Shown one piece after another: positions 7,189 through 64,000 of a stretch of DNA of 64,000 bases. The notes under the pieces are model-generated. The model was given only the letters and a program-made list of their open reading frames with translations, was not told where the DNA came from and made no database searches. The translations under genes and the position numbers were made by a program. Source of the DNA: Diplonema papillatum (lineage: Eukaryota > Euglenozoa > Diplonemea > Diplonemida > Diplonemidae); the NCBI GenBank assembly GCA_030068145.1, contig JAPJBO010000109.1, positions 310,001-374,000 of the forward strand. The letters run 5' to 3'. The stretch's first letter is position 1; each line of letters opens with the position of its first letter.

Positions 7189-9912
7189 TCACGGGCTGAA
7201 CACCTTGCAGCTCCACCCGTTCAGGCTGCACGTCTGCCGGCACTGCGCGTAGTAGATGGTCTGCTCGAAGCACGTGAACCCCCCCTCGCAGCAGTGGTTG
7301 GTCAGGCAGTTGCCCCACTGCGGGACCGCATTTGCGCCGCAGCTCGACGGCAGCGGCGGCGGCGGCGCGGTCGCCGGCGCGCCGCAGGCCCAGCCTACCG
7401 GGCAATCGCGGCGGCACTGCGAGTAGTGGACGGACTGGTGCCGGCAAGACGTGCCGGAGACGCAGCAGTTTTCGTCGTGCATGCACGAAGCCCACTCCGA
7501 GCACGACCCTGACGGCGTGTTGGCCGGCCGCGGCGTGTACACCTGCGGCGGCCTTGGCGTGGGCGGGGGCCACGTGCGAGGGCTGGGCGTCACCGGGGGT
7601 GGCAGGATCACCGGCGGAGCCAGCGTCGTCGTCCCGTCCAGCTCCCTGCAGTTGAACGGCGGCAAGCACGACGTCATGCACATGCCCCGGTTGTTCATGA
7701 AGATGTCGAAGCACGCCAACCCGCCGCAGCAGTCGGCCGTCCGCGAGCACTCCTCCTGCCCGGCCGCGCAATTCGCCGGCGGCGGCGACTCCCCGATGAC
7801 GTCGCAAGACCAAGGCGCCCCGCACGTCGTCATGCACATGCCCTTCCCGTTGGCCATGATGTCGTAACACTCGCCCGCGCAGCACTCCCCCTTCGCTGTG
7901 CACGGGTGTTGGTCCGCCGTGCAGGTCGGCGCCGCCCCGAGCACGTTGCAAGACCACGGCGCGGCGCACGAGTCCATGCACATGCCCTGCCCATTGGCCA
8001 TGATGTCGTAGCACTTCCCCGTGCAGCATCCCCCGGCCGCTGTGCACGGCTGCTGGTCCGCGATGCAGCTCGACGGTGGAGGCAGCGGCGCCGGCGGCGG
8101 AGAAGCTGGCATCGGCACTCCGATGAGCGTGCAGTCCCACGGCGCCGCGCACGAGCTCATGCACATGCCGACGGTAGGCTGCCCGGCGCTGAGGCGGCGG
8201 CACAGGAACCCTGAGCAGCACTCTCCGGGGCCAGCGCACTGCTCCATGTCCTTCGTGCACGTCGGGGCAGGCGGCGGCGACGCCGGCGGCCCGCTGCCGA
8301 GGATAGTGCAGTCCCACGGCGCCGCGCAAGACGTCATGCACATGTGGTCGGGCGCCGCAGCGAACAGCCGGCGGCACTGCCCGGCGCAGCAGGGCTTGCT
8401 CCCGTCGCACTTTTCGGTCTCCGCCACGCACTGGTTCGTTGGCGGCGGCGTCGCCGGCGCACCGCCGAACAGCGTGCAGTCCCACGGCGCAGAGCACGAC
8501 GTCATGCACATGTGGTCCGCCGCCCCGGCAAACAGCCGGCGGCACTGCCCGGCGCAGCAGGGCTTGCTCCCGTCGCACTTATCGGTGTCTGTCACGCACT
8601 GGTTCGTCGGCGGAGGCACCGGCGCCCCGCCGCCGAGCACCGTGCAGTCCCACATCGACGGCACGCAGGCCTCCATGCACATGTGGTCTCCGAGGTTCGG
8701 GTACAGCTTGCGGCACTCCCCGCTGCAGCACGGCACCGACCCGTCGCACCGCAGCGTGTCCGCTACACACGCCGCCGGCGGCGGCGTGGCGGGAACGGGC
8801 CCTGGCCCTGGCGGGGGAGTCTGCTGCGGGGGGGGCGTCGGAGCCGGGATGACAGGCGTCGGCGGCGGCACGGGCGGCGAGCCGGTGCAGACCTTCGCCT
8901 TCGACTTGATGTAGCTCTTCAGGAAGAGCCCCGCGCAGCTGACGGAGTCCCAGCTCGAGGTCCCGCACGAGTCCTCGGTGAGGGCGGCGGAGATCTCGTT
9001 CTTGTCCGCGTAGCTCCACATGCTGAACGCAATGTTCCGGTCGATGAACAGGTCGAGGAACTTCTTCGCGTTGTCCAAAAACGGACCGCCGTCGCCAGAC
9101 GACTCCGAAACTCCCCACTCGGTCGCGAAGATGGGCACCCGCTTCGACTCGGTGTCGATTCTGTCGTACAAAAACATATGCGTGCCGGCGTAAAAGTGGA
9201 ACGTGTACATAACGTTGTCCGGCTTCGCCACCGGGTTGGCCCTGACCTGATCGACGCCTTGGCTCCAGTCGGTGGTGCCGACGATAATCAGCGCGTTGTC
9301 GTCGTGGTTCCGAATGATCGGGATGATCTTGTCCGCGTACTGCTTGATGGTCGACCACTGCACGCCGTTGGGCTCGTTGCAGATCTCGTAGATCACGTGC
9401 TTCTCGTCCTTGTACTCCTTCGCGATCTCCTCCCAGAAGGCGGGGGCTTCGCTGTACTCCGTCGCGCTCGGGTTCCCGGGGGAGAGCATGTGCCAGTCGA
9501 TGATGACGTAGATTCCGAGCTCTTTCGTCCACTGAACGATGTCCTTCAAAAGGTCCTTCACTTCGGGCGATCCGTCAGAGTACCCGTCCTCCGTGACGTA
9601 CATCGCGGCCCGGAAGAGGTTGATCCCCCAGTTCTCGACGAGGAACTGGATGGAGTCCTTCGTGTAGCACTGCGGAAACCACTGCAGGCCGTGCGAGCTG
9701 ATGCCCATGAGCTGGACAAGCTCCCCATTCTCGCCGACGATCTGCACGTCGTTCGCCCCGCCGAGGCTCAGCTGCCCGTGGCACGAGGAAAAGCCGGTGT
9801 TGTCGACGGCGGCGATGTTCTTGTCCATCCCGCTGGGGAACGACGCGCACTGCTGCCCTGCGGCCAGGGTCGCCGCCGCGCTCAGCGCGAGGCAATGCAT
9901 AAAGCTGTTCAT
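7189..9912 (-). CDS. Secreted GH5 endoglucanase with nine Cys-rich modules
   Basis: The 907-residue protein is predicted to hydrolyse beta-1,4-glucan outside the cell. Residues 1-19 are a signal peptide. Residues about 40-345 are a glycoside hydrolase family 5 barrel of the bacterial endoglucanase type. It has Arg101, IIDWH at 137-141, YEICNEPNG with acid/base Glu180, FHFYAGTH with His239/Tyr241, FATEWG with nucleophile Glu265, and MWSYAD with Trp299, so the invariant set looks complete. A Pro-rich linker (about 346-380) leads to nine Cys modules. The first seven share a pattern of paired Cys with ending motifs like MCMxSCAAPWDC. The last two resemble fungal CBM1 (QWGNC, YYAQCR). An ATG seven codons upstream (9933) is in frame, but the start at 9912 puts the hydrophobic signal at the N-terminus. 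The gene is uninterrupted by introns. A decayed copy of its 3' end follows at 6661-6970. Confidence 0.92.
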   Translation of the reverse strand: MNSFMHCLALSAAATLAAGQQCASFPSGMDKNIAAVDNTGFSSCHGQLSLGGANDVQIVGENGELVQLMGISSHGLQWFPQCYTKDSIQFLVENWGINLFRAAMYVTEDGYSDGSPEVKDLLKDIVQWTKELGIYVIIDWHMLSPGNPSATEYSEAPAFWEEIAKEYKDEKHVIYEICNEPNGVQWSTIKQYADKIIPIIRNHDDNALIIVGTTDWSQGVDQVRANPVAKPDNVMYTFHFYAGTHMFLYDRIDTESKRVPIFATEWGVSESSGDGGPFLDNAKKFLDLFIDRNIAFSMWSYADKNEISAALTEDSCGTSSWDSVSCAGLFLKSYIKSKAKVCTGSPPVPPPTPVIPAPTPPPQQTPPPGPGPVPATPPPAACVADTLRCDGSVPCCSGECRKLYPNLGDHMCMEACVPSMWDCTVLGGGAPVPPPTNQCVTDTDKCDGSKPCCAGQCRRLFAGAADHMCMTSCSAPWDCTLFGGAPATPPPTNQCVAETEKCDGSKPCCAGQCRRLFAAAPDHMCMTSCAAPWDCTILGSGPPASPPPAPTCTKDMEQCAGPGECCSGFLCRRLSAGQPTVGMCMSSCAAPWDCTLIGVPMPASPPPAPLPPPSSCIADQQPCTAAGGCCTGKCYDIMANGQGMCMDSCAAPWSCNVLGAAPTCTADQHPCTAKGECCAGECYDIMANGKGMCMTTCGAPWSCDVIGESPPPANCAAGQEECSRTADCCGGLACFDIFMNNRGMCMTSCLPPFNCRELDGTTTLAPPVILPPPVTPSPRTWPPPTPRPPQVYTPRPANTPSGSCSEWASCMHDENCCVSGTSCRHQSVHYSQCRRDCPVGWACGAPATAPPPPLPSSCGANAVPQWGNCLTNHCCEGGFTCFEQTIYYAQCRQTCSLNGWSCKVFSP

Positions 9913-10199
9913 CTTTGAACCCCTTTTCCACACTTTTCTTTCTTCTTTCTTCTCAAGGTCCCCACGGGGCTGGTTTTGCGGCTACCTGCTGAGTGAAACC
10001 GATGTTCAGCTTGAGATCCAGATGGTGCAAGCAATAAAGGCGCACTGTTCAAAGGGCTCCTGTTACTGTTACTTGTCCGTTGGCGAACAACACTCTGGAT
10101 CCTGGGTGACTCCTCTCCGAAGGGTGGGGCGGAATCATTCGGGAGACGGTAGAGCGTGGGAGGCTATCACGTCCGGCGCTCGGCGACTACGTCTTTCCA
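9913..10199. other. 5' flank of the GH5 gene
   Basis: On the gene strand the 40 bases before the start are purine-rich (AGAAAGAAGAAAGAAAAG), which may be a leader. No promoter element is recognised. Confidence 0.35.
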
Positions 10200-10490: not shown

Positions 10491-10734
10491 TTGTATGCCA
10501 GCAGGGTGCGAACTGCGGATAAAAAAGAGCAGGCTCTGCATTTATTTCTTTACGAGAGGAAGCGGGGAAGAGAGGGGCAATATATATGTATCACTCATTC
10601 CGCGAAAAAGTGTCAAGACACCCGGCGCGCTGTGGTCTCTGTGCTGGGGGCTGTGGCACCGCTGGTTACTTCATTGAACCCTGACGTAGAATCCTGGTTC
10701 TAAGTGGGCCACTTCTGGTAAGCAGGACTGGCGA

Positions 10735-10985
10735 CGCGGGATGAACCGAGAGCTGACTTAAGGTGTCCGAGTGATCGCTCATCAGATCCCACAAAGGGTG
10801 TCGGTTCATCTTGACAGCAGGACGGTGGCCATGGAAGTCGGCATCCGATAAGGAGTGTGTAAGCCGAATGCACCGGTCCCGAAAATGGATGATGCTCAAG
10901 CGATCAACCCATAGTTGGCGGGATGAACCGAGAGCTGACTTAAGGTGTCCGAGTGATCGCTCATCAGACACACAACTCGAAATCC
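10735..10985 (+). repeat. Short direct duplication around repeat fragment
   Basis: The block GATGAACCGAGAGCTGACTT continuing to GATCGCTCATCAGA occurs at 10739-10792 and again at 10921-10970. Between them, 10865-10915 (AATGCACCGGTCCCGA) matches the sequence just upstream of the reverse transcriptase fragment at 19978-20030. Confidence 0.65.
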
Positions 10986-17600: not shown

Positions 17601-18844
17601 CCCACCAACGGAGTCAGCGTCGACGTGAAAACCGAGCTCGACTGCACCAAGATCGTCATTCCAGTTCCGAACAGCAGCAGGATGTAGTTGTCCCAACCAC
17701 CGCACGATCGCAGCACGGGGTGCTTGAAGTCGATGTTCAGCAGGTACCTCGTCCACACAGCAACGCGACCCTTCAGCACAGATCCCAGCAGCTTCACCAG
17801 CATCAGCAAGCACGTCGTCAACATCGCGAGCGAGATGAACAGCAGCAGGGCTCCCGCCGCTTCGTCGCTGATCGGCGACTCGCGGAAAACGTGCCCGGAC
17901 GACATCTTGATGATCGTCTTCTTCTCCAACTCCTTCACCTTCGCCGAAGTCGTGGCTGCTGCGATCTGCTCAATCAACTTCGAATCGACAGACACCACGC
18001 GCCCTTCCGCCGGCTCCGTGATCTTCTTGATGAACTCCGTCTTCTCACGCTTGTCGTCGTTCAAGTTCAGCGAGTCAACTGCAGCTCCCGCCAGCTCCTT
18101 CAGGAAGCCGGACGCCACTTCCAGCGGCAGGAAGATCCCCACCGTCAGCCAGTTGAACATGTCGTGGAACACAGATCCCGTGAACGCCCTCCGGTACTCC
18201 GCGGGGCTGTTTAAGTGCGCGATAGACACTATGGTGTTCGTAACGGACGTGCCGATGTTCGCTCCCATCACCAGGTACGACGCGTTCTCCACCGTCACCA
18301 GGTCCGACGCCGCCATCGAGATCACAATCGACGTCGTCGTCGACGATGACTGCATCAGCACCGTCGCAAGGATCCCGATTGCCAGCCCGGCCACCGGGTT
18401 GGCTATCAGGTCGCTGTCGCGGAACGTTCTGCCCGACGAACGCCCTCCGAGAATCTTGAACGCGCTGCCCATCAGCCCCAGGGCGATGATGAACAGGTAC
18501 AGCACCCCGAACACCGCGCCCACCTTCACGAACGTGTGCACTACCCACTCGATCTTCTCCAACGCGCTCAGCAGGCTGAACGGGATCTCGTCGTTCGCCA
18601 TCTCCTGCAGCGCCCAGTGGTCCCCAGCCAGCCTGTGCTCTTCCTCCGTCTGAAACTCGGACCACTTCTTCTCGAAGTCCCGTTCACACGTGGCGCTGTC
18701 GCCGTTGAGGATGTCCCGCCCCATCGGCGACACTCTGAACTCCTCGTACGTGACGTAGCGACCGCCTATCTGATACCATTTTCTGCCTTCCACAGGCTTC
18801 TGCACCTCTACATTCTCGACGTGAGTCGGAACTACCTCGCCCAT
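14669..18844 (-). CDS. Na+/phosphate cotransporter fused to phytase-like ectodomain
   Basis: The 1391-residue membrane protein combines phosphate uptake with a putative esterase. Residues about 105-545 are an SLC34-type Na/Pi cotransporter with both inverted repeats: MQSSSTTTS (165-) with GANIGTSVTN, then VQSSSVFTS (401-) with GANIGTTVTG. A helix near 618-636 (PTFLAFFGVLLAVNTAQW) leads to a Cys-rich segment (660-760). About 800-1180 resembles the esterase-like phytase domain: GGIGFDACTGDAFVITTRG, NGIGAMAVKHDG and VLLLERDSG. Three or four helices follow (1242-1355), so the phytase-like part is a loop or ectodomain between membrane blocks. The ATG at 18844 is chosen over one 37 codons upstream because the duplicated 5' end at 19140-19403 conserves sequence from this ATG. 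Ordinary SLC34 proteins are about 600-700 residues. Catalytic activity of the esterase part is not proven. Confidence 0.88.
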   Translation of the reverse strand: MGEVVPTHVENVEVQKPVEGRKWYQIGGRYVTYEEFRVSPMGRDILNGDSATCERDFEKKWSEFQTEEEHRLAGDHWALQEMANDEIPFSLLSALEKIEWVVHTFVKVGAVFGVLYLFIIALGLMGSAFKILGGRSSGRTFRDSDLIANPVAGLAIGILATVLMQSSSTTTSIVISMAASDLVTVENASYLVMGANIGTSVTNTIVSIAHLNSPAEYRRAFTGSVFHDMFNWLTVGIFLPLEVASGFLKELAGAAVDSLNLNDDKREKTEFIKKITEPAEGRVVSVDSKLIEQIAAATTSAKVKELEKKTIIKMSSGHVFRESPISDEAAGALLLFISLAMLTTCLLMLVKLLGSVLKGRVAVWTRYLLNIDFKHPVLRSCGGWDNYILLLFGTGMTILVQSSSVFTSTLTPLVGIGLIHVEKMVPLTHGANIGTTVTGVLSALSGSNVDIGMRVALEHVFFNCLGTVVWFVVWPLRPAPLELAKFMGETAANLRWFPLAYIITGFVALPALVLGLSVAGWEVLVAVGVPLLLVSLAFVALVWVRRSRADLLPRRGALSVLRAEHVPCCGCRLPNFMQLWGGDADADRVDIEDMRRREVEHAKKANSVSEWHYSPVAWGPTFLAFFGVLLAVNTAQWRRVRYGIEPAALQRKEIGLGLTEMCSPQYESTREWATPPPECDLAAVKLCARELSRSCAEDSTWATGAATSNEEEQYASAWAHCSKHVGCRGYDWTRMCTELPDCKGRSNHEANCWNTMSGVDWFYLRNSEAHGVTVTYDYSGVTTRENLTLPHDNHFSSSGGSAVRADVYTTPSMPEVKGAKPSLGGIGFDACTGDAFVITTRGPTAACAGGGAVFTDAGYAISYSGAHLVRNVKRSESAYSVVFALEDGAAEKWTPLSGTTGLPNVEHNTTTGDDCATSTVQPAARNGIAPGGIRKMGAGVFVTADKYGSRLVLFQADGTVLKSLVPSNSGYTAANTGAPVDEVLPEYFYEEGTDNGIGAMAVKHDGTKVVACMRKPLAGTRLVRCAIVNYDSTTTTATLAGVKLVVLSDVKLNDGADGMHNDLQGQLEIAAASWLSGDKVLLLERDSGRTDSFKGSSLYEVDFATGSEVANLTVAALESALNENVPYLALSLQALAARSVAPATMTLRATSDDLAEAVLSSVVDIYVSAAATVVMVEEAPWGGGSNISAVHLKTALPFAQSTCSSGAAKAVRPPMVGVLHETKCHDINDICIEGDLGGDMKAVRGLAICATLFMGLSLPLIIVYCFLPYHGVVKFFIFAAAAALALSWIFSLASWAHMSSLTQNEYGCIFVDESIRGGLIVQRGKLQWLTRDSYSWGFMIYAWGMITIPLACVIHRVVRVTCLPYSSRFAVDPDEDVLDTLPSKVINEPIA

Positions 18845-18849
18845 TTTTC

Positions 18850-18890
18850 TTTTGTGTTTGCGACAATCCCGCGAGGGCGTGCAGATTTTA
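18850..18890. repeat. Stem-loop repeat in the 5' flank of the transporter gene
   Basis: GTTTGCGACAATCCCGCGAG then GGCGTGCAGATT is a version of the stem-loop at 5767. CCC and GGG still pair although the loop differs. It lies antisense to the transporter, 6-46 bases upstream of its start. Confidence 0.45.
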
Positions 18891-19139
18891 TTCGGACCTT
18901 TTGACAAGTTTTGTTGACAAGTTTTTCGGAGGAAACCCCTTGCTCGATCTGTCAATCCTTGATATTAGTACAATTCCCCCGTGTTGAGTCTATTTAAACC
19001 GCCTACTCCGCGCCTGGTGGTGTCATTCCGGCAATTCCTTTCAGTTTCAGCCTTGCGAATGTACTCTCCCCTGAACCGATAATCTATGATTTCTCGTTCG
19101 GGAAGTGCCGCGGGAGCCAAAATGACTTTTCTAGATCGA

Positions 19140-25592: not shown

Positions 25593-27116
25593 CTACTGCA
25601 CGGTCTGCGTGTAGGGGCCCTCCTCGATCCACCTGTTGAAGGTGGCGCGCTCGCCGTTGACTTCGATGTAGTCCAGGTCCCAATCGGACCCGTGATACTT
25701 CCCGTCGCTCTCGACTGTCAGGCTGAAGATGGATCCGACGTCGCGGCCGTAAAAAGCGAGACTGTCCGTGTCACCGTTCTCGAAGGCGTCTCCCGACAGC
25801 CGCGGGTTCAGCAAAACAGCGCGGGTGGCCACGCCCAGCGAGCCGACGACGGTCAGTCGGATGTTCGAGTCGGTGCCGGCGCCGCTCCGCGTGCCGGTCT
25901 TCACCGTGACGGAGTACGTCTTACCCTGGGTGAAGCCGGCGTTGAATGACGAGCCAGATTCCAACCAGCGGTCGAACACCGCAATCTGACTCCCTACCTT
26001 GACATGCTCCGCGTACCAGTCGTTCCCGTTCAGCAGGCTGACGCTCGCGCTTTGGACGGTTTGAAGCGCCGCCGTCGACACGACGACCACGGTGTCGACG
26101 CCGTCTTTGTCGGGCGACTCCAAAAGCGCATCACCTGCGGCGTAGCCGCCGGTCCCTGAGCCGTACAGGACGATGGCGATATCGCCGTTGGTCCCCGCGC
26201 TGTCCACGTGCCCAGTCTTCACATCGACGGTGCGGCTCCTGCTGAGCACGGGCGGCGGGGTCCAGATTGAGTCGCTGTGCACTTTGCTGCGCACTGCGAG
26301 GCGCTGGGTGCCGACCGCCAGGACGGCGTCGTGGAAGATCTCGACGAAGCTGCTGTCGCTGGCGACCCACCCCCTCACGAACTCGCCGACGATTTGCCCG
26401 TTCGTGTGGTGCGGCTGCGCGGGGTGCACGTAGTCGGCGATCGTGCTCTCCAGCTTGTTCGTCCACGTGAACACCTGCTTGAACCCGTACTCGCTGTGCG
26501 GGTTGTTCCCCGCGTTTATGCCCGCCAGCGTGTTCTTGTAGTTCAAGATCGAGTTTCCGCACGTCGCCACCGACCGCTTCACGCCGTCGTCCTTCAGCTT
26601 CTGCAGCACCGCCGGCACCTGATCTTCCTCGCCGTTAACGAACGCAACTCCGACGCCCAGGTTCGCAGTGTTGGCCAGCGCCGTCTTGATCGCCTCGTAG
26701 CCCTTCGCATCGTCAAGGACGTCGTCCAGCGGGCACTCAAAGAACACGCCGATGTCCGTCGGCATCGCTTCCACGACTGCGTCGACCACTTTGCTCAGGT
26801 TCCCCTCGTTCGGCGTCTTCACGTCCAGCCACAGCACCGTGAAAGACTCGGCACTCCCCGCCTTGGCTGCGAGCTCAGCGAGCCAGTCCTCCACGTCGGG
26901 TCCGTTTTCCGCGGAATCGTGCTGCACGGCCCAGAAGCCCCTGTCGGCGTCCCACATCAGGTCGCACTCGACGTTCGCCCCGGCGGCCACTGCGGTCGCG
27001 ACCCCTGCGACGGTGTTGACCCTGTGGGCAAACACGTACTGCGGCTGCCGCCCATCGGCTGCGCACACGGCGGCCACAAGCACCGCCGCCACCGCTGCAT
27101 ATTGAAGGTGTTTCAT
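25593..27116 (-). CDS. Secreted GDPD/SMaseD-like phosphodiesterase with two PLAT domains
   Basis: The 507-residue protein starts with a signal peptide (1-20). Residues about 26-245 resemble the barrel shared by glycerophosphodiester phosphodiesterases and sphingomyelinase D. His31 (FAHRVN), Glu51 and Asp53 (VECDLMW), His66 (VQHD), and Asp98 and Lys100 (WLDVKTP) correspond to the catalytic and metal set of that superfamily, so it looks active. Two PLAT/LH2 beta-sandwich domains follow at about 295-385 and 399-498 (each has a TVxVKTG strand and ends FxRWxExG). They normally direct enzymes to membranes or lipids. It likely cleaves phospholipid head groups outside the cell. Whether it prefers sphingomyelin, lysolipids or glycerophosphodiesters cannot be read from sequence. 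The start at 27116 is chosen over 27179 because it begins the signal peptide. There are no introns. Confidence 0.85.
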   Translation of the reverse strand: MKHLQYAAVAAVLVAAVCAADGRQPQYVFAHRVNTVAGVATAVAAGANVECDLMWDADRGFWAVQHDSAENGPDVEDWLAELAAKAGSAESFTVLWLDVKTPNEGNLSKVVDAVVEAMPTDIGVFFECPLDDVLDDAKGYEAIKTALANTANLGVGVAFVNGEEDQVPAVLQKLKDDGVKRSVATCGNSILNYKNTLAGINAGNNPHSEYGFKQVFTWTNKLESTIADYVHPAQPHHTNGQIVGEFVRGWVASDSSFVEIFHDAVLAVGTQRLAVRSKVHSDSIWTPPPVLSRSRTVDVKTGHVDSAGTNGDIAIVLYGSGTGGYAAGDALLESPDKDGVDTVVVVSTAALQTVQSASVSLLNGNDWYAEHVKVGSQIAVFDRWLESGSSFNAGFTQGKTYSVTVKTGTRSGAGTDSNIRLTVVGSLGVATRAVLLNPRLSGDAFENGDTDSLAFYGRDVGSIFSLTVESDGKYHGSDWDLDYIEVNGERATFNRWIEEGPYTQTVQ

Positions 27117-27284
27117 ATTTTTTTGGATGGTGGAGAATACCTGGAAAACGGAGTTCCTTGACGAATGGCACCGGACCAAATCCGGATTGCCGGCTGATTA
27201 AATTTCGAGCCTTTTTTTAACTGGACAGGATCAGCCGATTTTCAACCGTACAAACTTTGACTGTGCAAGCCTACCCTGCATTTC
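27117..27284. other. 5' flank of the PLAT gene
   Basis: On the gene strand an A-run (CCAAAAAAATATG) directly precedes the start. There is an A-rich leader here and before the transporter start. No promoter is recognised. Confidence 0.35.
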
Positions 27285-33905: not shown

Positions 33906-34869
33906 GTTCTCTTTCGTGTTTACAATTAATTGTTATTACGAAAAAAGATCATGACCACAAGGTCCTACTTGCGGTTCAGTTTCTTCACACATTGGTGCGC
34001 ACTAGGTGGCACTTTGTTTGTGCGCACTAGCGGCTTTTCACCTGATTTGGTGAGTTGCTTTTAGTACGCTGCCAACTACTAATTTTTAGTACCAACAATG
34101 CATTGTTAACACAAAAAAAAGTTGCGAGGAAGTAATCCTGCGTGCTGAGGGCAGCAAGTCGCGTTACGCGCTGTGTGGCGAGGGTGCAACTGCGGGACGT
34201 ATCTGGCAGGTGATCCTGCCCTTTGTTGCGAGAAAAAGTGCACCGGGGAAAGCCTGCCGCACAGGAGGGGGCCAAGCTTCACGTGTTCGGCAGGGTACTG
34301 CTAAGCCACGGGTCACGGGTCCAAGTAGCCACCGATTTCCCGAACCAAAGCCGGGAGATATTTAGTCTTGGCGCAGAGGGGGATGAACGAGCTACAACTA
34401 AGATTTGAACGCGTCTCCAACTCTCACCGCTCATCGGTTGCAGGGACTTTTAACCCCTCTTTTCAAAGTTCTTTGCATCTTTCCATCACTGTACTTGTTC
34501 GCTATCGGCCTCCGGGAGATACCCAGCCTTGGCAGAGGGACACCCGCCGATTAGCTCAGCATTCCCAAACTGAGCGACGCTCGTGCTAGCAATAAGTTAA
34601 CCAACATGGCTCGTCGAGGGGACTCTTGCCCGACGCCAGTTGTGTCCTCAAGCAGCTTGCGCCGCATTATATATATATCCGTAGAACACCGGTGCGCCAA
34701 GCCCGTAAAAAACACGATCAGCCACAGGGCAGAGCGGACGGGGTTGTGGTGCAGTGCTAACTTGGACTCAAGCTCGGCACGCTGCGACCAGACCGTCACG
34801 CACTTGCTCCACAGACTACAAGAGGCAAGCTCAACAGTGTACCAGACTACTACAGACTAAGAAGCAGTC
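33906..34869. repeat. Intergenic with diverged family R4 relatives
   Basis: 34225-34360 (GGGAAAGCCTGCC, CTTCACGTGTTCGGC, CCGATTTCCCGAACC) and 34540-34800 (GCCGATTAGCTCAGCATTCC, GCTAGCAATAAGTTAACCAA) resemble family R4 and the inverted segment at 41085-41290. There is no gene. Confidence 0.5.
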
Positions 34870-48039: not shown

Positions 48040-50433
48040 CTAGGTAACGGCCGATGCACCCTCGGGCTGGGAGTGGGGGTCTCTGTTCGCTCTTCTGTTT
48101 GCATGGTGCTTCGGGCAGCAGCTGGCTAATGCTTCGTTTGCTACTACGCAGTCGCCGCAGCGTCCTAGTCTGTGTGCTGTGCAAAAGTGCATCCGCGGCC
48201 TTAGACCATCCGATCCGTGATGATGCTGCTTGAGGCGACAGCAGGTCTCCGCCGGTAGGCGCTTTTTGACGCACTCCCTGCATCGCGGCTTCCTGTGATG
48301 CGAGCAAACCACTCCGGGGCGGGAGGTATTCACCGCGCCTTCTGGGGCCTCGAACGGGGGGGCTCCTTCGCACGGTTCCGTGCTTGAGCTTCTTCCTGCC
48401 GCTTCAGCCTTCGTCTTCCAATCCGGCTTTCCCTGCGTCCACCCTGCCGGATAGGCCTCCTCTGGCAAAAAAGTTGCGGCCCATCCCAGGTGCGGAGGGA
48501 ACGGGCTGTTTTCTTGTTGGTCTGGCCGATTTTCTCGTGTGTGTTCGCGTATCTTCATGATCACATCCTCGGTCGCGGTCAATAACTGTGCACGCCTCGA
48601 AACACCCCGCACAACCGTTCCTCCCACAGATGTCAAAACGGTGGTGGAGTATTCATGGCCGCAGAACCACGGCTGTGCAACCACCTTCCCATACGCCTTC
48701 CCCATTTCGATGAGGCTGAGCGCTTTTCCTAGACCGGACCGACGGAAGTTTGCCAGCATGGTCTCTTGTTGCTGCCGGGTGGGCCTTTGGCGTTGCACCA
48801 GGTCCATGGCGGCGTTGCTGAGCGCGTCCGCGTCTGTGTTCAGCTCCCGCGCAACGTGCTCAATGTGCAGTGTCAGCCGTCTCTGCAGGGACGACACCTT
48901 CAAGGCCGCGCGCGTCAGATACGGCTTCAGTTCCTCTGAACATGCCATGCGTCGTGCGAGGTGCCCGACAACCAGCGCCGAGTCGCCTCGCACCGTGCAT
49001 TCCTCTCCTTCCGCTTCGCCTGCATCCCCCAGCAGGTGCAGTCCTTCGTACTCTGCTACGTTGTTGCTGCGCACGGTCGGCAGTGGCAGGACCACTTCTG
49101 CCACTTTCACTCCATCGCGGTACACGACTGCCCCCGCCCCGGCAACGGCGAAGGCGGTCCCATTCGCTCTCGCCCCGCCATCGAAATAAACCAGGAGCCT
49201 GCTGTCTCCCATTTCCCGGGCCGGTAACGTAGCGCGGGCTGCCGTTGCCTTGCCTGTTGGTGCTTGTGGAGGAGCTGAGTAGAACCTACTCTTCAGGTCA
49301 GGGAGTCGCCGTCCTGTGTACAGCTCGAAATCCACTGCCAGTTCGATGAAACTGGTTCCCAGCTCATCGTGCCCTGGGGGGGCCCACTTCGTCTGCTGCA
49401 GCCAGTCGGTAAATGCCATCCACATCTCTTGGCCATATTTCCACTTCGTTCCGACGGCGGAAGGTGCAATGGCAGGGACCGTGAGTCTGTGTGGTTCTGA
49501 TGGCTTCCACCCACGCGGGTAGTCCACGGTCCTGTGATGCCTGGCGGACCTGTCAAGCAGGCCGTCTGCTTCCTGACGTCGAGTTAGGACCTCGACGAAG
49601 AAAAGGTGTAGCCGCTTTAGTACACGCAACCTTTCTTCCCTAGCTGCCGGCAGCCCGGGGATCGCTTCGTCTCCTCGTACAGCTGGGGCCACCCCGCACA
49701 AGCGTAGGCACGGGGGCCAATTCCTTTGCACGTTTACCAAGTCTCCGTGCTTCGATCGACTTCGTTCCCAGGCTGGGCACATCCAGAACAAGTGCTCTAC
49801 CGTCTCCCGGTCCTGTGTGTCGCAGTACGGGCAGTTTCGTTCACCCAACCCCGTTCGCCCGGTTGCCGGTGTGGCCCCCGCAAGTACCGACTTCAGCATG
49901 CCGGCTTCGTACGCGGTGAGGGGGGAGTCCCGCATTTCTAGTAGGTGCCGGGTTGCCTGGTGGTCTACCCCGTTCTGCACACCCCCGAAGTCCGCTGCTC
50001 GCGGCGCTGCGAGCTGAGCCATCTCACGCAGCCTCAGCGCGTGCCGCAAGTCGTGTTGAAAGATTCGGGTGCAGCCTTGCGCCGCTGCATCGTGCACTAC
50101 CTCGTCTCCGGCTTCGTTCGTGTAGGCAATGCTGGTCGGTGCCACCCAGCGCCACTGGAGCCCATCCAGAGCTCTCTTGAAAAGGGTTAGGGGCCCTCTC
50201 AGCATTAGTAGCGTGTCGCTGTGCTCCCATGCCGTCCGGGACAGAGTCCGCGCGGACTCCCACTTCTCGACTTGAACAGCCCAGGTGGTTATTCTCCGGT
50301 AAACGGGCACTACTACCGGGTCGAGTCTGTGCCCGTGGTGCAGTATGTGCAGCACGGCCTCCTGGGCAGGAGTGTACAGTAAGCTCTCATGCAACAGCCG
50401 CATCAGAAGCAGGAGTGTACAGTAAGCTCTCAT
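48040..50433 (-). CDS. LINE ORF2 C-terminal part: zinc knuckle, RNase H, duplicated Cys/His tail
   Basis: 797 codons remain open. Residues 201-219 hold the CPYC-x9-H-x4-C knuckle typical of non-LTR reverse transcriptases downstream of the polymerase. Residues about 413-547 are an RNase H domain with the full acidic set: Asp418 (VYFDGG), Glu461 (AEYEGL), Asp484 (RGDSALVV) and Asp536 (NTDADALSN). The C-terminus after about 715 contains two similar Cys/His clusters: CSHHRKPRCRECV with CCRLKQHH, and CTAHRLGRCGDCV with CCPKHH. No polymerase motif is present, so the copy cannot move alone. The displayed start is simply the first ATG after truncation and lies in the 43 bp triplication. The frame is intact for 2.4 kb, so insertion was recent or the fragment is under constraint. 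Confidence 0.9.
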   Translation of the reverse strand: MRAYCTLLLLMRLLHESLLYTPAQEAVLHILHHGHRLDPVVVPVYRRITTWAVQVEKWESARTLSRTAWEHSDTLLMLRGPLTLFKRALDGLQWRWVAPTSIAYTNEAGDEVVHDAAAQGCTRIFQHDLRHALRLREMAQLAAPRAADFGGVQNGVDHQATRHLLEMRDSPLTAYEAGMLKSVLAGATPATGRTGLGERNCPYCDTQDRETVEHLFWMCPAWERSRSKHGDLVNVQRNWPPCLRLCGVAPAVRGDEAIPGLPAAREERLRVLKRLHLFFVEVLTRRQEADGLLDRSARHHRTVDYPRGWKPSEPHRLTVPAIAPSAVGTKWKYGQEMWMAFTDWLQQTKWAPPGHDELGTSFIELAVDFELYTGRRLPDLKSRFYSAPPQAPTGKATAARATLPAREMGDSRLLVYFDGGARANGTAFAVAGAGAVVYRDGVKVAEVVLPLPTVRSNNVAEYEGLHLLGDAGEAEGEECTVRGDSALVVGHLARRMACSEELKPYLTRAALKVSSLQRRLTLHIEHVARELNTDADALSNAAMDLVQRQRPTRQQQETMLANFRRSGLGKALSLIEMGKAYGKVVAQPWFCGHEYSTTVLTSVGGTVVRGVSRRAQLLTATEDVIMKIREHTRENRPDQQENSPFPPHLGWAATFLPEEAYPAGWTQGKPDWKTKAEAAGRSSSTEPCEGAPPFEAPEGAVNTSRPGVVCSHHRKPRCRECVKKRLPAETCCRLKQHHHGSDGLRPRMHFCTAHRLGRCGDCVVANEALASCCPKHHANRRANRDPHSQPEGASAVT

Positions 50434-52526: not shown

Positions 52527-52820
52527 GGTACCAGGGAAAGCCTGCTACACGGGAGCCAAGCTTCACGTTCGGCGGTACTGCAGAGCCACGGGCCTACGGG
52601 TCAAGTGGCTACCGATTTCCCAAACTAAAGCATCAATTCGTGGCGCACCTTGGGGCTTGGCGCTCGCACTGAACACAAGCTCGTCGAGACGGTCAGCCGC
52701 AGGGCAGAGCGGACGGGGTTGTGGCGCTGTGCTGTCTCCGACTCAAGCTTTGCAAGCTGTGGTTGACGTTCCTGAACCAGGAGCGGCCTTTTTCTTTTTT
52801 CTCTTCTTCTTCTTCTTTCC
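52527..52820 (+). repeat. Family R4, copy 3
   Basis: GGTACCAGGGAAAGCCTGCT to GAGCGGCCTTTTTC and a TTCTTC tail. It is near-identical to the other two full copies with one 4-base deletion (CACGTTCGGC). Confidence 0.85.
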
Positions 52821-52934
52821 GGCCCCTGCACGGGAAGACCGCCGCCCACCTACGGCGACCATCCTGGAATCTCCGGCGCGCTGCTGGGCGTAAGTGGGCG
52901 GTGTTAGGCCGGTTAGATTCACCACCTTTCCTCA

Positions 52935-53785
52935 GTAGTACACCCCGAACTCCACTCGGATTGCGGGAGTGGTTTTGCGGTCGTTTTCGTGCGGTCGGCC
53001 TCACCCCCTCAATGCGGGAGTGGGGCCCCCCTCAAGCGGGAGTGGCACTCTCTCAATGCGGGAGTGGCACTCTCTCAATGCAGGAGTGGCACTCTCTCAA
53101 TGCGGGAGTGGCACTCTCTCAATGCGGGAGTGGCACTCCCTCAATGCGGGAGTGGGACCCCCTCAAGCGGGAGTGGCACTCTCTCAATGCGGGAGTGGCA
53201 CTCGCTCAATGTGGGAGTGGCACTCCCTCAATGCGGGAGTGGGACCCCCTCAAGCGGGAGTGGCACTCTCTCAATGCGGGAGTGGCACTCTCTCAATGCG
53301 GGAGTGGCACTCCCTCAATGCGGGAGTGGGACCCCCTCAAGCGGGAGTGGCACTCTCTCAATGCGGGAGTGGCACTCTCTCAATGCGGGAGTGGCACTCC
53401 CTCAATGCGGGAGTGGGACCCCCTCAATGCGGGAGTGGCACTCTCTCAATGCGGGAGTTCAATGCGGGAGTGGCACTCTCTCAATGCGGGAGTGGGACCC
53501 CTCAATGAGGGAGTGGGACCCCCGCAATGCGGGAGTGGCACTCTCTCAATGCGGGAGTGGGACCCCTCAATGAGGGAGTGGCACTCTCAATGCGGGAGTG
53601 GGACCCCCTCAATGCGGGAGGGGCATTCCCTCAATGAGGCAGTGGCACTCTCTCAATGCGGGAGTTCAATGCGGGAGTGGCGCTCTCTCAATGCGGGAGT
53701 GGGACCCCCTCAATGCGGGAGGGGCCACTCCCGCACTTTGATACTCCCGTATTGACTTGCTGAAGTCCGGGGTGTAGTATTGTCC
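52935..53785. mobile_element. CTCAATGCGGGAGTGG array inside inverted ends
   Basis: About 32 units near 21 bp (CTCAATGCGGGAGTGGCACT and variants with GGGACCCC) span 52990-53735. The flanks are GTAGTACACCCCGAACTCC on the left and GAAGTCCGGGGTGTAGTA on the right, which are complementary. The same ends and the phrase TGCGGTCGGCCTCAC occur at 35560-35840. Each unit pairs with its neighbours because CCCTCAATG is partly complementary to GGGAG. The long plus-strand open frames here only reflect the repeat. Confidence 0.88.
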
Positions 53786-59547: not shown

Positions 59548-60110
59548 TTGAACAAGACAAGCTCAAACCCCATTCGGCGCCAATTCTGACTCGCTCAGAT
59601 GAAAGCCCATGAAGGCCCATGTCGGTACCGAGGATGTGTGAAGACAGGTACCACGGGTTCACCTCGTAGCAGCTCCAGCCGGTGGTGCAGCAGTTGCGCG
59701 CCCACTGGCAGTTGCCCCACGGCTGGATGACCCAGCGCGCACACCGGCGGCTGCGGCACCGTCCTCGGTCCTTCTTGCAGCACCAGCCGTACGGACACTC
59801 GCGGAGACACTGCGAGTACCACCGGCTCTGCCGGTAGCACTCGGTCCCGAAGACGCTCTCGTCGACAGCTGGCACTTCTTGGCAGGCGGCAGAGGAACAG
59901 CTTGCACGTCCTGTGACGGCTGGATGACCCAGCGGCACGCCGGCGGCTGCGAAGACTTGCCCGGTCGTCCAGCGATACCTTGCCACTGGCGTGCTCGAGG
60001 TCCTTTTGATCCAGCCAAGCCCGGTGGTTAAGATAAGAGAAATTTCGACGTCTTGACACTGCCCGCTCACAGATGAAATTCGGAAGATTTGCGGCTCTTT
60101 GAACGAGACA
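59548..60110 (-). pseudogene. Decayed duplicate of the GH5-GH6 gene's 3' end
   Basis: 59648-59915 is a near copy of 60262-60560, which encodes the last two Cys modules (TECYRQSRWYSQCLRECPYG and WVIQPWGNCQWARNCC are recognisable). Deletions remove parts of both modules and shift the frame, and the terminal codons differ (ending WYLSSHI instead of WYAQCRREC). A second fragment of the WVIQP region lies at about 59915-59960. The 3' flank is duplicated as well: TTTGAACAAGACAAGCTCAA at 59548 corresponds to 60098. This is a same-strand tandem partial duplication, like the one beside the first cellulase gene. Confidence 0.85.
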
Positions 60111-60204: not shown

Positions 60205-63200
60205 CTAGCACAGCTTTCTGCACGACCAAGAGCGCGAGGTGCACTCCCTGCGGCACTGGGCGTACCACGGGTTCACCTCGTAGCAGCTCCAGCCTGTGGC
60301 GCAGCAGTTGCGCGCCCACTGGCAGTTGCCCCACGGCTGGATGACCCAGCGACACGCCGGCGGCTGCGGCTGCGGCACCGGCGTGCGCGTGTCCTCGTCC
60401 TTCTTGCAGTCCCAGCCGTACGGGCACTCGCGCAGACACTGCGAGTACCACCGGCTCTGCCGGTAGCACTCGGTCCCGAAGACGCAGCAGTTCTCGTCGG
60501 TCGTGCACGGGTGGTACAGCTTGCACTTCTTGGCAGACGGCGGAGTCGGCGGCGCCCGGGTGGGGACAGGGGTGGGGGCCGGCGGCGGCGGCTGGTTGTC
60601 GTTGCAGTCCCACCCGCGCGGGCACTGCCGCAAGCACTGCGAGTACCAGTGGTTCTGCTTGTAGCACCGCGTCCCGTCCACGCAGCACTCCTTGTCGAAC
60701 GTGCACGAGTAGAACAGCTTGCACGTCCTCGGCTTCGTCGGACTCGGCGTCGGCGCCGCTGTTGCCGGCACCGGCGTCGGATACGAACAGTCCCAGTACC
60801 TCCTATCGCACGTCCCCTTCTCGAGACACAGCGTGAGCTCGTCGGTCAGCACGTAGCACTTGTACCCGTCCTTGCAGCACTTCTCCGCCGTGCACTTTTC
60901 GTAACCCCCCAGCGTGCATTTGCCCCCGGGTGCCTCCGTTGCCGGCGCCGGGGTGGCCGGAGCATGCGTGGGAGGAGCAGGCGTATGCGGGGCTGAAGTA
61001 GGCGGGGCGGACGTGGGTGGAGATGATGTAGGGGGGGCTGACGTGGGTGGAGATGATGTAGGGGGGGCTGACGTGGGTGGAGATGATGTAGGGGGGGCTG
61101 ACGTGGGTGGAGATGATGTAGGGGGGGCAGTCGTGGGCGGGGCTGCCGTAGGCGCGTTGGTCGGCGGGGCCTGCGATGGGACGTCGGTCGGCTGCGTCAG
61201 GCGGCACGCGAAGCCGGCTTCGTCGCACACGGTGAGGCACTGGCTGTACCCGGGCAACAGGTTGTAGCACTGTGCGTCACCCACACAGCAGTCCGTCGGC
61301 ATGCAAGGGTCCCCCTCCGGCACGCACACTTTCGACCCCGGTGCAAACGTAGTCGACACCCGCACCGTGCACTCCAACGCACCGCCCGCGTCGCACTCTT
61401 CCAAACAGTACGAAAACCCGTCTCCCAGGAAGTAGCACTGAGCGCCTTCCTCGCAGCAGGGCAGCGAAGTGTCGCATAACCCCCTGTTACCGACGCAGAC
61501 GTTCGGAGAGCCGGTGTGCGGGGCGCCGGTTTCGGCCGTCGGCGCGCGGGAGAGCGGCGGCGCCTCGCACGTGCTGAACGGCGGGCACTCGTCGATGCAG
61601 GTGAAATCCGGCGCGGCGTTGACCCGAAGGCACTCTTTTCCCGGGCAGCAGTCAACCGTGTACGAACACTCTCCGACGGTCAGGCAGCCGGGGACGTAAG
61701 GGATCTCGACGCAGTCGAACGGCGCGGCGCACGTCTGCAGGCACGCGCTGACCCCCAGCCCGAGGGTGAAGCACCGCAGCCCGGCGTTGCAGCACTGTGT
61801 GGAAGAGCACGCCGCGCCTTCCGACACACAGTCCACCGCGGTCACGTCCGGCGCCGGTGCCGGCACCCACGTCGCCTCGGTTTTGACCGAACACTCGTTG
61901 GGCCCCAGAGGATCACACACTGGGCGGCATTGACCAATCCCGAGGACTATGGCGTAACACTGGGACGCGCCGCAGCACGTGGCCCCCGCGCACGACAGGA
62001 AGTCCGGGGTGCAGGCGAGGAGGGACACCGCATTGGCCGCGAGCGTCTGCGCTTGGAGGTCGAACCATTCGCCGGCCATCGGCGCGCTCACCTCGTCGGC
62101 GCTCGCGCCGATGCACTCCGGCATGCCGCATTGCGCGTCGTACCACGAGCACGCCGACGCGTCCGGCAGCGTCGACGTGCATCCATCAGACACCCCTGGG
62201 GTCTTGACCCACAGCAACGCATCGACGTTGGTCAGATTCGCGTCGGCGGTGGGAGCCGCGCCGAACGCAGCGTCCCGCACGTTGCACCAGTGCGCGCACG
62301 TCGCCTCGTCGGTCGCCCCGCCGTTGCGTCCGGTGTCGACGACGAAACGCTTCCCCGGGAACAGCGACGAAAGCACGGCAACATGATTCGCCTCATTGTT
62401 CGCTCCCCCCGCCGGCAACCGTCCGCACGGGTCCGCGCAGCAGCCCGCGGGCTCGTTGCCCGCGCAGAAGCCGAGGGCAGGGCACATAGTCCCCGTCGGC
62501 TGGTAGCTCCCGACGTTCGTGGAGAACCCCCGCACCTTGTCCACGATGCCGAGGCTCTGCACCACGTACGCGTACCGCTGCGCCGCCTCGGGTGCCCCGA
62601 GCAGGCCGCTGTGGCCGGCGTCGAGATACACTGCCACTTCGGGCAAAATCTTGTGGAACTGAGCAACGGCGTACGCGATGCCTTCCGCGTACGCGGACGC
62701 CGTCGCAAGGTTCCCGCACTGCGGGTCGTCTCGCTTTGCTGCGAGGTTGGCTATGGCCCCGGGCTCCACGATGAGGACAATCGGCACGACGCCTTGGTAT
62801 CCCGCGAGCAGGAAGATAAGCTCGTCGATGAAGTCCTTCTTGTACGCCGAGATGCCCGTCGGACACGTCCCCGCCTTCTTCAGGTCGCAGCCCCCCGCCG
62901 CCGCCGCGTAGCAGCAGATCTCCCCGGCTGTTACGGTGCGGTCGCAGTCGCGGTTCGGCAGGTTGTGCACGACGAAGGTGACCACTGGAGCCGGCGTCTG
63001 CAGCGCGGCATCCGCGAGGATGCCTTCCGCCGTGTCCAGGCCCTGCCCGTGGATGCGGGCGGACGAGTCGATCCAGAACGACGTCGGCGCGTCCTTCGCG
63101 GCTTCGAGGCGCTCGGCCACCGACGCATCGGCGGCCGCCGCCGCCGCCGCCCCGACGCGTTGCGCGAAAAGCGCGTTTTTGTACATCCGGCGCGGCGGTG

Positions 63201-64000
63201 CGAACGGATTCCCCGCAGCCGTGGCCACCGGGATGGAGTTGGACACCGGGGATGACGTTGTGAGGGGGGGGGTAGACCCCACGGGGGGATACCCGACGCA
63301 GGTGGAACCGTGGGCGGCGATGTAGTTCCGGAGGAACGCGCCCGTGCACGAAGCAGCCGTCCACTGCTTCGCGAAGCAAGCATCGTACGTCAACGCCGAC
63401 GACGCGTCAACGCCGTCGGCGTACTGCCACTGCACCCAGCTCACGCCGAGCTCCCGCGCCACCTCGAGGAACGTGTACGCGTCCTCCAAATACGGAACGC
63501 CGCCGCCGGTGGCGTCCGTCGGCGCGAAAGCGGTGACAAACAGCGGCATTTTCGCGGCGTGCGCCGCGAACTTGTCCAGCAGCGACGTGTGCGTGCCGGC
63601 GAAGAAGTGGAACGCGTACATGACGTTCGCAGGGCGGGCTACCGGGGCTGCAAAGGCGATCTCCACGTCTTGGGACCAGTTGGTGGTCCCGACGATGACG
63701 ATCGCTTTCGGGTCGTTTGCCCGGATCGCAGCGATGATGCTGTCTGCGTACGTCTTCACGGCACTCCATTCGACCATGTTCGGCTCGCTCACGATTTCGT
63801 ACAGAACGTGCCGCTCCGCTGCGTAAAGCGCGGACATTTCTTCGAAGAAACCCTGCGCGCCTTGATAGACCGCGGCGTTCGGGTCCCCCGGGGTGTGGAC
63901 GTGCCAGTCTATGATGACGTAGATTCCGAGCTCCTTCGCCCACTGCACGATGTCCTTCACTTTTTCCTTTACGAACGCGCTTCCGTCGGCGAATCCACCC
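60205..64000 (-). CDS. GH5-GH6 fusion with nine Cys modules; both hydrolase sites altered (5' end off window)
   Basis: The frame stays open to the right edge, so the N-terminus is missing. Seen parts, in order: (1) a GH5 barrel very like that of 7189-9912, but YEIVSEP replaces YEICNEP, FHFFAGTH replaces FHFYAGTH and FVTAFAP replaces FATEWG. The nucleophile Glu is therefore Ala (codon at 63529-63531). (2) A GH6 cellobiohydrolase-like domain from about 63180 to 62040. LPNRDC keeps the Arg-Asp pair and TPGVSDG keeps the third Asp. In VEPGAIANL the usual catalytic Asp of VEPDSLANL is Gly (codon at 62758-62760), and the usual Tyr before LPxRDC is His. (3) Five Cys modules, a TSAPPTSSPP linker, then four more modules, the last CBM1-like (QPWGNC, WYAQCR). 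It probably binds cellulose and is secreted. Catalysis is doubtful. Confidence 0.9.
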   Translation of the reverse strand, partial: GGFADGSAFVKEKVKDIVQWAKELGIYVIIDWHVHTPGDPNAAVYQGAQGFFEEMSALYAAERHVLYEIVSEPNMVEWSAVKTYADSIIAAIRANDPKAIVIVGTTNWSQDVEIAFAAPVARPANVMYAFHFFAGTHTSLLDKFAAHAAKMPLFVTAFAPTDATGGGVPYLEDAYTFLEVARELGVSWVQWQYADGVDASSALTYDACFAKQWTAASCTGAFLRNYIAAHGSTCVGYPPVGSTPPLTTSSPVSNSIPVATAAGNPFAPPRRMYKNALFAQRVGAAAAAAADASVAERLEAAKDAPTSFWIDSSARIHGQGLDTAEGILADAALQTPAPVVTFVVHNLPNRDCDRTVTAGEICCYAAAAGGCDLKKAGTCPTGISAYKKDFIDELIFLLAGYQGVVPIVLIVEPGAIANLAAKRDDPQCGNLATASAYAEGIAYAVAQFHKILPEVAVYLDAGHSGLLGAPEAAQRYAYVVQSLGIVDKVRGFSTNVGSYQPTGTMCPALGFCAGNEPAGCCADPCGRLPAGGANNEANHVAVLSSLFPGKRFVVDTGRNGGATDEATCAHWCNVRDAAFGAAPTADANLTNVDALLWVKTPGVSDGCTSTLPDASACSWYDAQCGMPECIGASADEVSAPMAGEWFDLQAQTLAANAVSLLACTPDFLSCAGATCCGASQCYAIVLGIGQCRPVCDPLGPNECSVKTEATWVPAPAPDVTAVDCVSEGAACSSTQCCNAGLRCFTLGLGVSACLQTCAAPFDCVEIPYVPGCLTVGECSYTVDCCPGKECLRVNAAPDFTCIDECPPFSTCEAPPLSRAPTAETGAPHTGSPNVCVGNRGLCDTSLPCCEEGAQCYFLGDGFSYCLEECDAGGALECTVRVSTTFAPGSKVCVPEGDPCMPTDCCVGDAQCYNLLPGYSQCLTVCDEAGFACRLTQPTDVPSQAPPTNAPTAAPPTTAPPTSSPPTSAPPTSSPPTSAPPTSSPPTSAPPTSSPPTSAPPTSAPHTPAPPTHAPATPAPATEAPGGKCTLGGYEKCTAEKCCKDGYKCYVLTDELTLCLEKGTCDRRYWDCSYPTPVPATAAPTPSPTKPRTCKLFYSCTFDKECCVDGTRCYKQNHWYSQCLRQCPRGWDCNDNQPPPPAPTPVPTRAPPTPPSAKKCKLYHPCTTDENCCVFGTECYRQSRWYSQCLRECPYGWDCKKDEDTRTPVPQPQPPACRWVIQPWGNCQWARNCCATGWSCYEVNPWYAQCRRECTSRSWSCRKLC
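60990..61140. repeat. 30 bp coding minisatellite (Thr-Ser-Pro linker)
   Basis: GGGGCTGACGTGGGTGGAGA-TGATGTAGGG repeats about four and a half times and encodes TSAPPTSSPP on the minus strand. It is the flexible, probably O-glycosylated linker between module groups and is likely to vary in length between alleles. Confidence 0.93.

Follow-up and report, generated by a model that had tools for sequence, protein, structure and literature searches.

The window analysed here, 64,000 nucleotides of a Diplonema papillatum contig, carries at its end, on the minus strand, a gene for a protein (P0001) that joins a GH5 domain, a GH6 domain and at least eight Cys-rich modules. Residues key to catalysis have been lost at both sites in a frame that appears maintained, a conclusion backed by alignment and structure models as well as by codon bias and similar losses in relatives. 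A protein search placed the full product at 1378 residues, on a 381-kb contig; its first 114 residues lie beyond position 64000 and were taken from the full-length protein record. The protein is arranged as a putative signal peptide, GH5 (residues 39-350), GH6 (residues 371-773), Cys modules, a Pro/Thr/Ser-rich linker and further Cys modules, and the Pfam matches to GH5 and GH6 were both well over the cut-off. Numbering follows Bacillus agaradhaerens Cel5A for GH5 and Trichoderma Cel6A for GH6, with columns from computed alignments; 15 active-site positions were scored for GH5 and 17 for GH6. The features of the gene, and of a paralogue in the same window, are as follows.

60205..63999, minus strand: P0001 coding sequence, residues 115-1378 plus stop; open reading frame (ORF) cut by the window edge
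63292..63999, minus strand: in-window part of the GH5 domain, residues 115-350 (profile, alignment, structure model)
63784..63789, minus strand: Ser185-Glu186 for the usual GH5 Asn-Glu; acid/base Glu retained, Asn gone (alignment)
63601..63603, minus strand: Phe247 replacing the conserved Tyr of HFYAGTH (alignment)
63529..63531, minus strand: Ala271 replacing the GH5 nucleophile Glu (alignment)
62023..63231, minus strand: GH6 domain, residues 371-773 (profile, alignment, structure model)
62965..62967, minus strand: His459 replacing the GH6 active-site Tyr (Y169) (alignment)
62947..62949, minus strand: Asp465, the kept RDC Asp (D175) (alignment)
62758..62760, minus strand: Gly528 replacing the GH6 catalytic acid Asp (D221) (alignment)
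62593..62604, minus strand: stretch with Leu580 and Ala583 at the positions of the plus-subsite Trp residues W269 and W272 (alignment)
62185..62193, minus strand: Val717 for the conserved Glu E399; Asp719 (D401) kept (alignment)
61204..62013, minus strand: five Cys-rich modules, residues 777-1046, four of the five without the YSQC end (pattern search)
60934..61197, minus strand: Pro/Thr/Ser-rich linker; Extensin_1 match under the Pfam cut-off (Pfam)
60787..60918, minus strand: additional, ninth Cys module outside the pattern, residues 1142-1185 (by eye in P0001)
60220..60723, minus strand: three CBM1-like Cys modules, residues 1207-1374, YSQC/YAQC (pattern and profile)
7189..9933, minus strand: paralogue ORF of 914 residues; GH5 site intact, Cys modules matching the P0001 pattern (alignment and pattern)

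Positions 60205-63999 form one frame without a stop over 1264 codons in the window; the chance of such a frame staying open, estimated from base composition, is about 3e-13, and the remaining five frames contain 8-30 stops across the same ORF. A frame shift or internal stop in P0001 was considered and rejected, since none was found in these codons. An initial sequence-only reading of this DNA had described an open frame and intact modules over 3.8 kb; the open frame was confirmed and the pattern-matched Cys modules are complete, although the description does not reach the N-terminal residues encoded outside the window.

The GH5 domain fits both the family profile and the barrel fold, and its structure model superposes on Cel5A. 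At the nucleophile, P0001 reads FVTAFAP in place of FVTEWG, in an ungapped alignment, which confirms the lack of the Glu first noticed from the sequence. The nucleophile is absent from only two of the 34 GH5 domains compared (28 proteins, namely 27 retrieved and the window paralogue, some of them isoforms of one transcript): those of P0001 and the second GH5 domain of P0040. The retaining mechanism of GH5 enzymes proceeds in two steps via a covalent intermediate on the nucleophile Glu; with this residue absent, no covalent intermediate would form and the two-step mechanism could not run. The reported replacement of NEP by SEP removes the Asn and leaves the acid/base Glu186 itself in place, and the reported Phe for Tyr in FHFYAGTH is present, P0001 reading FHFFAGTH. 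Further changes are H35A, W39L and Y66F, all past the window end, W229F, which is the Trp next to the nucleophile, and K267G; R62, H101, the acid/base Glu, W178, H200, H206 and W262 are retained. Against invariant positions defined from nine intact rows, 8 of 15 active-site positions are changed versus 14 of 67 elsewhere (one-sided p 0.015, uncorrected), whereas three GH5 relatives with both catalytic Glu have changed at only 1 or 2 of the 15. Judged by these aligned residues, the earlier observation holds and is stronger for GH5 than was stated.

The GH6 domain likewise fits its profile and the barrel fold, with a model that superposes on Cel6A. Both substitutions first noticed here were recovered: VEPGAIANL for VEPDSLANL, which replaces the acid Asp by Gly, and VHNLPNRDC for VYDLPDRDC, which replaces the Tyr before LPxRDC by His. 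Six of the 17 scored positions are changed (Y169 to His, D221 to Gly, S181 to Thr, W269 to Leu, W272 to Ala and E399 to Val), W269 and W272 being the residues that hold the chain in the plus subsites; W135, D137, R174, D175, D263, H266, N305, R353, W367, K395 and D401 are retained. Among 36 aligned GH6 rows, the D221 column holds Asp in 21, Gly in 10, Asn in one and Ala in one, with three absent (two gaps and one fragment), and the Y169 column holds Tyr in 19, His in 15 and Ala in one, with one absent. The alignment indicates that the key residues of GH6 are gone, but that its wider site is better preserved. The earlier claim that both active sites were lost therefore stands for key residues of both, and not for the acid/base Glu of GH5 or for D175, D263 and D401 of GH6, all of which are kept.

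Without D221 and Y169 the GH6 domain should be severely impaired. A rival explanation is that it retains slow catalysis via Asp 175, 263 or 401, or acts on another substrate, with GH5 dead. Trichoderma GH6 mutants of the D221A and Y169F type reportedly retain some activity. The D221A and Y169F mutants were structurally solved, as their structure titles indicate, and the retained residues listed above, D137 apart, also speak for this explanation. On the other side, the acid Asp, the Tyr, the two plus-subsite Trp and a Glu have all gone, so that both the chemistry and the acquisition of the chain should suffer, and we regard residual or altered catalysis as improbable.

Confident models of the P0001 domains superpose closely on Cel5A and Cel6A. 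A misalignment hiding another acidic residue at the GH5 nucleophile or the GH6 acid was rejected, because both sites fall in ungapped stretches of the alignments and because of this close superposition. Alignment and modelling, proposed with the sequence-only reading as a check, thus gave no sign of an alternative Glu or Asp at either position, at the level of aligned columns and overall superposition. The predicted loss of catalysis in P0001 is well supported by sequence; its function and the selection acting on it are what we infer below.

The Cys-module pattern occurs eight times in P0001, eight times in the paralogue, three times in P0038 and not at all in P0040, and YSQC/YAQC terminal modules like those of P0001 are also found at the ends of the window paralogue and of P0038. 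A profile built from eight YSQC/YAQC-type modules of three proteins matched the solved fungal Cel7A CBM1 (E 3.9e-5 and 9.7e-5; best stretch alone 5.3e-4) and, in hhalign, CBM1-like stretches of four retrieved proteins (96%, 21 columns). The terminal modules appear by these comparisons to be CBM1-like, which suggests that they dock on cellulose. No hydrophobic segment was found near the C-terminus of P0001 in a hydropathy scan, unlike in P0038 and P0040, and P0001 is therefore probably soluble and secreted.

The closest GH5 relatives listed were P0038, P0039, P0042 and P0043 (53%; one transcriptome), P0040 from D. papillatum (52%) and P0044 (52%). In the GH5 tree, built after removal of eight near-duplicates among 35 rows, the second GH5 of P0040 (Endoglucanase, residues 1094-1402) lies in the same 11-row clade as that of P0001 and is similarly dead, having lost the nucleophile and sharing W39L, N138S and alterations of Y66, Y202 and K267. 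Unlike P0001, it has Gln for both catalytic Glu, so the acid/base is lost too, and keeps H35 and W229; its partner domain is a GH5 with both Glu rather than a GH6, and the protein has a C-terminal hydrophobic segment and no Cys modules of the P0001 pattern. Its active-site positions are also changed more often than other invariants (8/15 versus 17/67; p 0.038, uncorrected). The two dead GH5 domains group with support of 89/93 when all columns are used, and in 13% of bootstraps without the active-site columns (approximately unbiased test, p 0.40), so that a common origin of the two losses is neither securely supported nor rejected.

Losses of the same kind were found in a clade of 13 GH6 proteins (P0004 and P0008-P0019). 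A query with P0004 returned at least 31 proteins, among the 7997 best word-sharing candidates scored; P0003, P0005 and P0007, which have no GH6, were removed before alignment, the fragment P0020 before the first tree, and P0020, P0006 and P0037 before the second. As in P0001, Y169 is His in 12 of the 13 and D221 is Gly in nine, and W269 and E399 are changed in all. Unlike P0001, which keeps them, all 13 have changed H266, W367 and K395 (H266 to Asp in 12 of 13), and they have no GH5 by listed Pfam domains and, in 12 of 13, a hydrophobic segment after GH6. P0016 retains D221, and P0010/P0013 and P0004/P0008 are near copies. Active-site loss reached p < 0.05 (uncorrected) in ten of the 13, the exceptions being P0012, P0015 and P0017. 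Support for the clade is 100/100 with active-site columns in or out; P0024 and P0034, with His for Tyr169, join it at 97/98 (78/94 without those columns), and the P0001 GH6 branches next at 87/84 (63/68 without them). This placement is insecure because of the long P0001 end branch, which measures 1.24 and 1.29 changes per column in the two trees and is exceeded only by those of P0037 and P0006 in the first and by none in the second. If the placement is right, the Tyr-to-His change came first, with more than one loss of the Asp or its return. A viral origin of the clade was looked for in a viral_contigs scan with alignment A3, which gave 40 pattern matches and no tblastn relative, a negative that is not decisive against such an origin. 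Outside the window, P0006 (1328 residues) has Cys-rich repeats recognized by eye and a GH6 with all 17 checked active-site positions.

A further rival explanation is an assembly or annotation artefact, for which it speaks that the searched set holds P0001 as a single member sequence on a single contig. The many in-frame substitutions, of the same kind in the separate P0040 and in P0004 and P0008-P0019, make this explanation highly improbable.

By listed Pfam domains, GH5 and GH6 occurred together only in P0001 and in Chrysophaeum taylorii CTAYLR_010496 (P0030) among the matches listed, one of these capped searches having missed the latter. Unlike P0001, the C. taylorii protein has GH6 first, both sites intact, an N-terminal hydrophobic segment and a GH5 from another branch. 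The GH6 domain of tunicate cellulose synthase resembles that of P0001 in keeping its fold within a fusion despite loss of the D221 equivalent, as excerpts of PMC7464555 and PMC10334666 describe, but its fusion partner is a glycosyltransferase and its host a cellulose-making animal; the first of these excerpts gives the Asp as present in 56 of 58 non-tunicate GH6 domains (PMC7464555). Beetle GH28 pseudoenzymes are likewise inactive hydrolases retained beside active relatives (PMC6549527, in excerpt), in another family and on another substrate. No dead GH5-GH6 fusion was named in the literature titles and abstracts searched, and the supplementary D. papillatum tables of carbohydrate-active enzymes (CAZymes) may list such proteins.

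Several measures bear on whether P0001 is maintained. The G+C content at third codon positions (GC3) is 0.835 in GH5, 0.864 in GH6 and 0.833 in the C-terminal part, close to 0.861 in a neighbouring Na/Pi transporter gene and lower than 0.905 in the GH5 paralogue; the GC content of four presumed noncoding stretches is 50.6-54.9%. Directly downstream of the gene, at 59648-59951 of the minus strand, lies a partial degenerate duplicate of the P0001 C-terminal modules (82% over 286 columns, plus a 36-base piece at 97%); according to part of PMC10161547, gene parts are repeated next to genes in the D. papillatum genome. Relaxed selection, with a redundant cellulase decaying that has yet to acquire a stop, would be consistent with this duplicate, with the long GH6 end branch and with the changes at invariant positions outside the active sites (14/67 in GH5 and 9/50 in GH6). 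Those invariants are nevertheless mostly kept (53/67 and 41/50), the GH5 end branch is 0.68 versus 0.57 in the paralogue, and the open codons, the GC3 close to that of neighbouring genes and the complete Cys modules also argue against decay, which we consider unlikely. The frame, the GC3 and the proportions of nonsynonymous and synonymous differences (pN and pS) fit constraint without dating it.

The paralogue lies 50 kb from the P0001 gene. Its presence, with an intact GH5 site, would suit a decoy function, whereby the dead domains of P0001 soak up algal or plant cellulase inhibitors and shield active relatives; the kept fold and lost chemistry of P0001 would suit it as well, and PMC6549527 cites Ma et al. 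(2017) for a decoy that is a paralogue of the PsXEG1 effector of Phytophthora. Against it, no such inhibitor is known, the GH5 domains of P0001 and the paralogue are just 47% identical over 235 codons (pN 0.36, pS 0.57), and no second GH6 was found within the window. A decoy seems quite improbable; together with decay and residual activity it is one of the main rivals.

On balance we lean toward P0001 being a probably secreted GH5-GH6 fusion, catalytically dead and kept as a non-hydrolytic cell-wall binder. Its C-terminal CBM1-like modules would dock on cellulose in the walls of algae or plants, with both dead barrels offering extra weak surfaces contacting glycan or protein. P0001 may act alongside active enzymes such as the paralogue, possibly loosening wall surfaces or marking them, or keeping enzymes or prey debris close to the cell. 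Part of PMC10161547 reports nearly 500 CAZymes in D. papillatum, 82 of the proteins belonging to cellulose and hemicellulose families, a repertoire that should allow feeding on many algae and plants; such a diet would give P0001 a biological setting.

Some observations weigh against this interpretation. The comparison of pN with pS mixes the periods before and after loss of catalysis, and pS is high. Active-site loss in GH6 (6/17 versus 9/50 elsewhere) is not significant (p 0.13), and the GH6 superposition is looser in Foldseek (rmsd 3.0-4.7, TMq 0.72-0.77 to the fungal Cel6A chains listed). Pfam CBM_1 gave zero matches up to E 1 in P0001, and the CBM1 match is limited to the module's C-terminal half. 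The protein start resembles a signal peptide by eye and falls short of the 1.6 threshold set for hydropathy in the scan. Some of the cellulose-stacking aromatics of the clefts are gone (W39 and Y66 in GH5, W269 and W272 in GH6), making cellulose binding by the dead clefts doubtful. The earlier proposal of a cellulose-binding protein is accordingly narrowed to the C-terminal CBM1-like modules, as candidates by sequence, with binding by the catalytic folds doubtful.

Single families with dead glycosidases were already on record (tunicate CesA-GH6, beetle GH28); in P0001 two unrelated cellulase folds both miss key catalytic residues, and the frame and binding-like modules are kept. Taken with the separate losses in the D. 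papillatum GH5 and the GH6 clade, this points to recurrent use of dead cellulases. Of greater interest is such repeated loss of catalysis among the cellulases of protists, a point based so far on few sequences. It is a speculative and rather doubtful extension that diplonemids and other protists have repeatedly turned secreted or membrane-anchored GH5 and GH6 cellulases into dead wall-recognising adhesins or sensors, with P0001, the D. papillatum GH5-GH5 protein and the 13-member GH6 clade as members. Cellulase counts from domain matches can overstate degrading capacity. P. papillatum is genetically tractable, as stated in an excerpt of PMC12697944, so a wall-recognition role could be tested there.

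In the rest of the window, a tblastn search with 59 retrieved proteins (E 1e-4) gave cellulase-like matches only at 7.2-9.9 kb and 59.6-64 kb, and no tRNAs were found. Partial matches to eukaryotic large-subunit rRNA (Rfam) lie at 10608-10955 (plus strand) and 34221-34781 (minus strand), in opposite orientations and to different parts of the model. On the minus strand, a 1428-residue ORF (14669-18955) has, after stretches of Na/Pi cotransporter type, a phytase/esterase-like domain and may be a transporter-phosphatase fusion; a 528-residue ORF (25593-27179) has a PLAT domain by Pfam and an N-terminal part that looks phosphodiesterase-like by eye; and a 797-residue ORF (48040-50433) has an RNase H-like (RVT_3) match and is perhaps part of a retrotransposon, with a GC3 of 0.665, below the other genes measured. 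The stretch 52721-53755 (plus strand) is repetitive and open in three forward frames, with units like SMREWHSLNAGVALSQCGSGTL.

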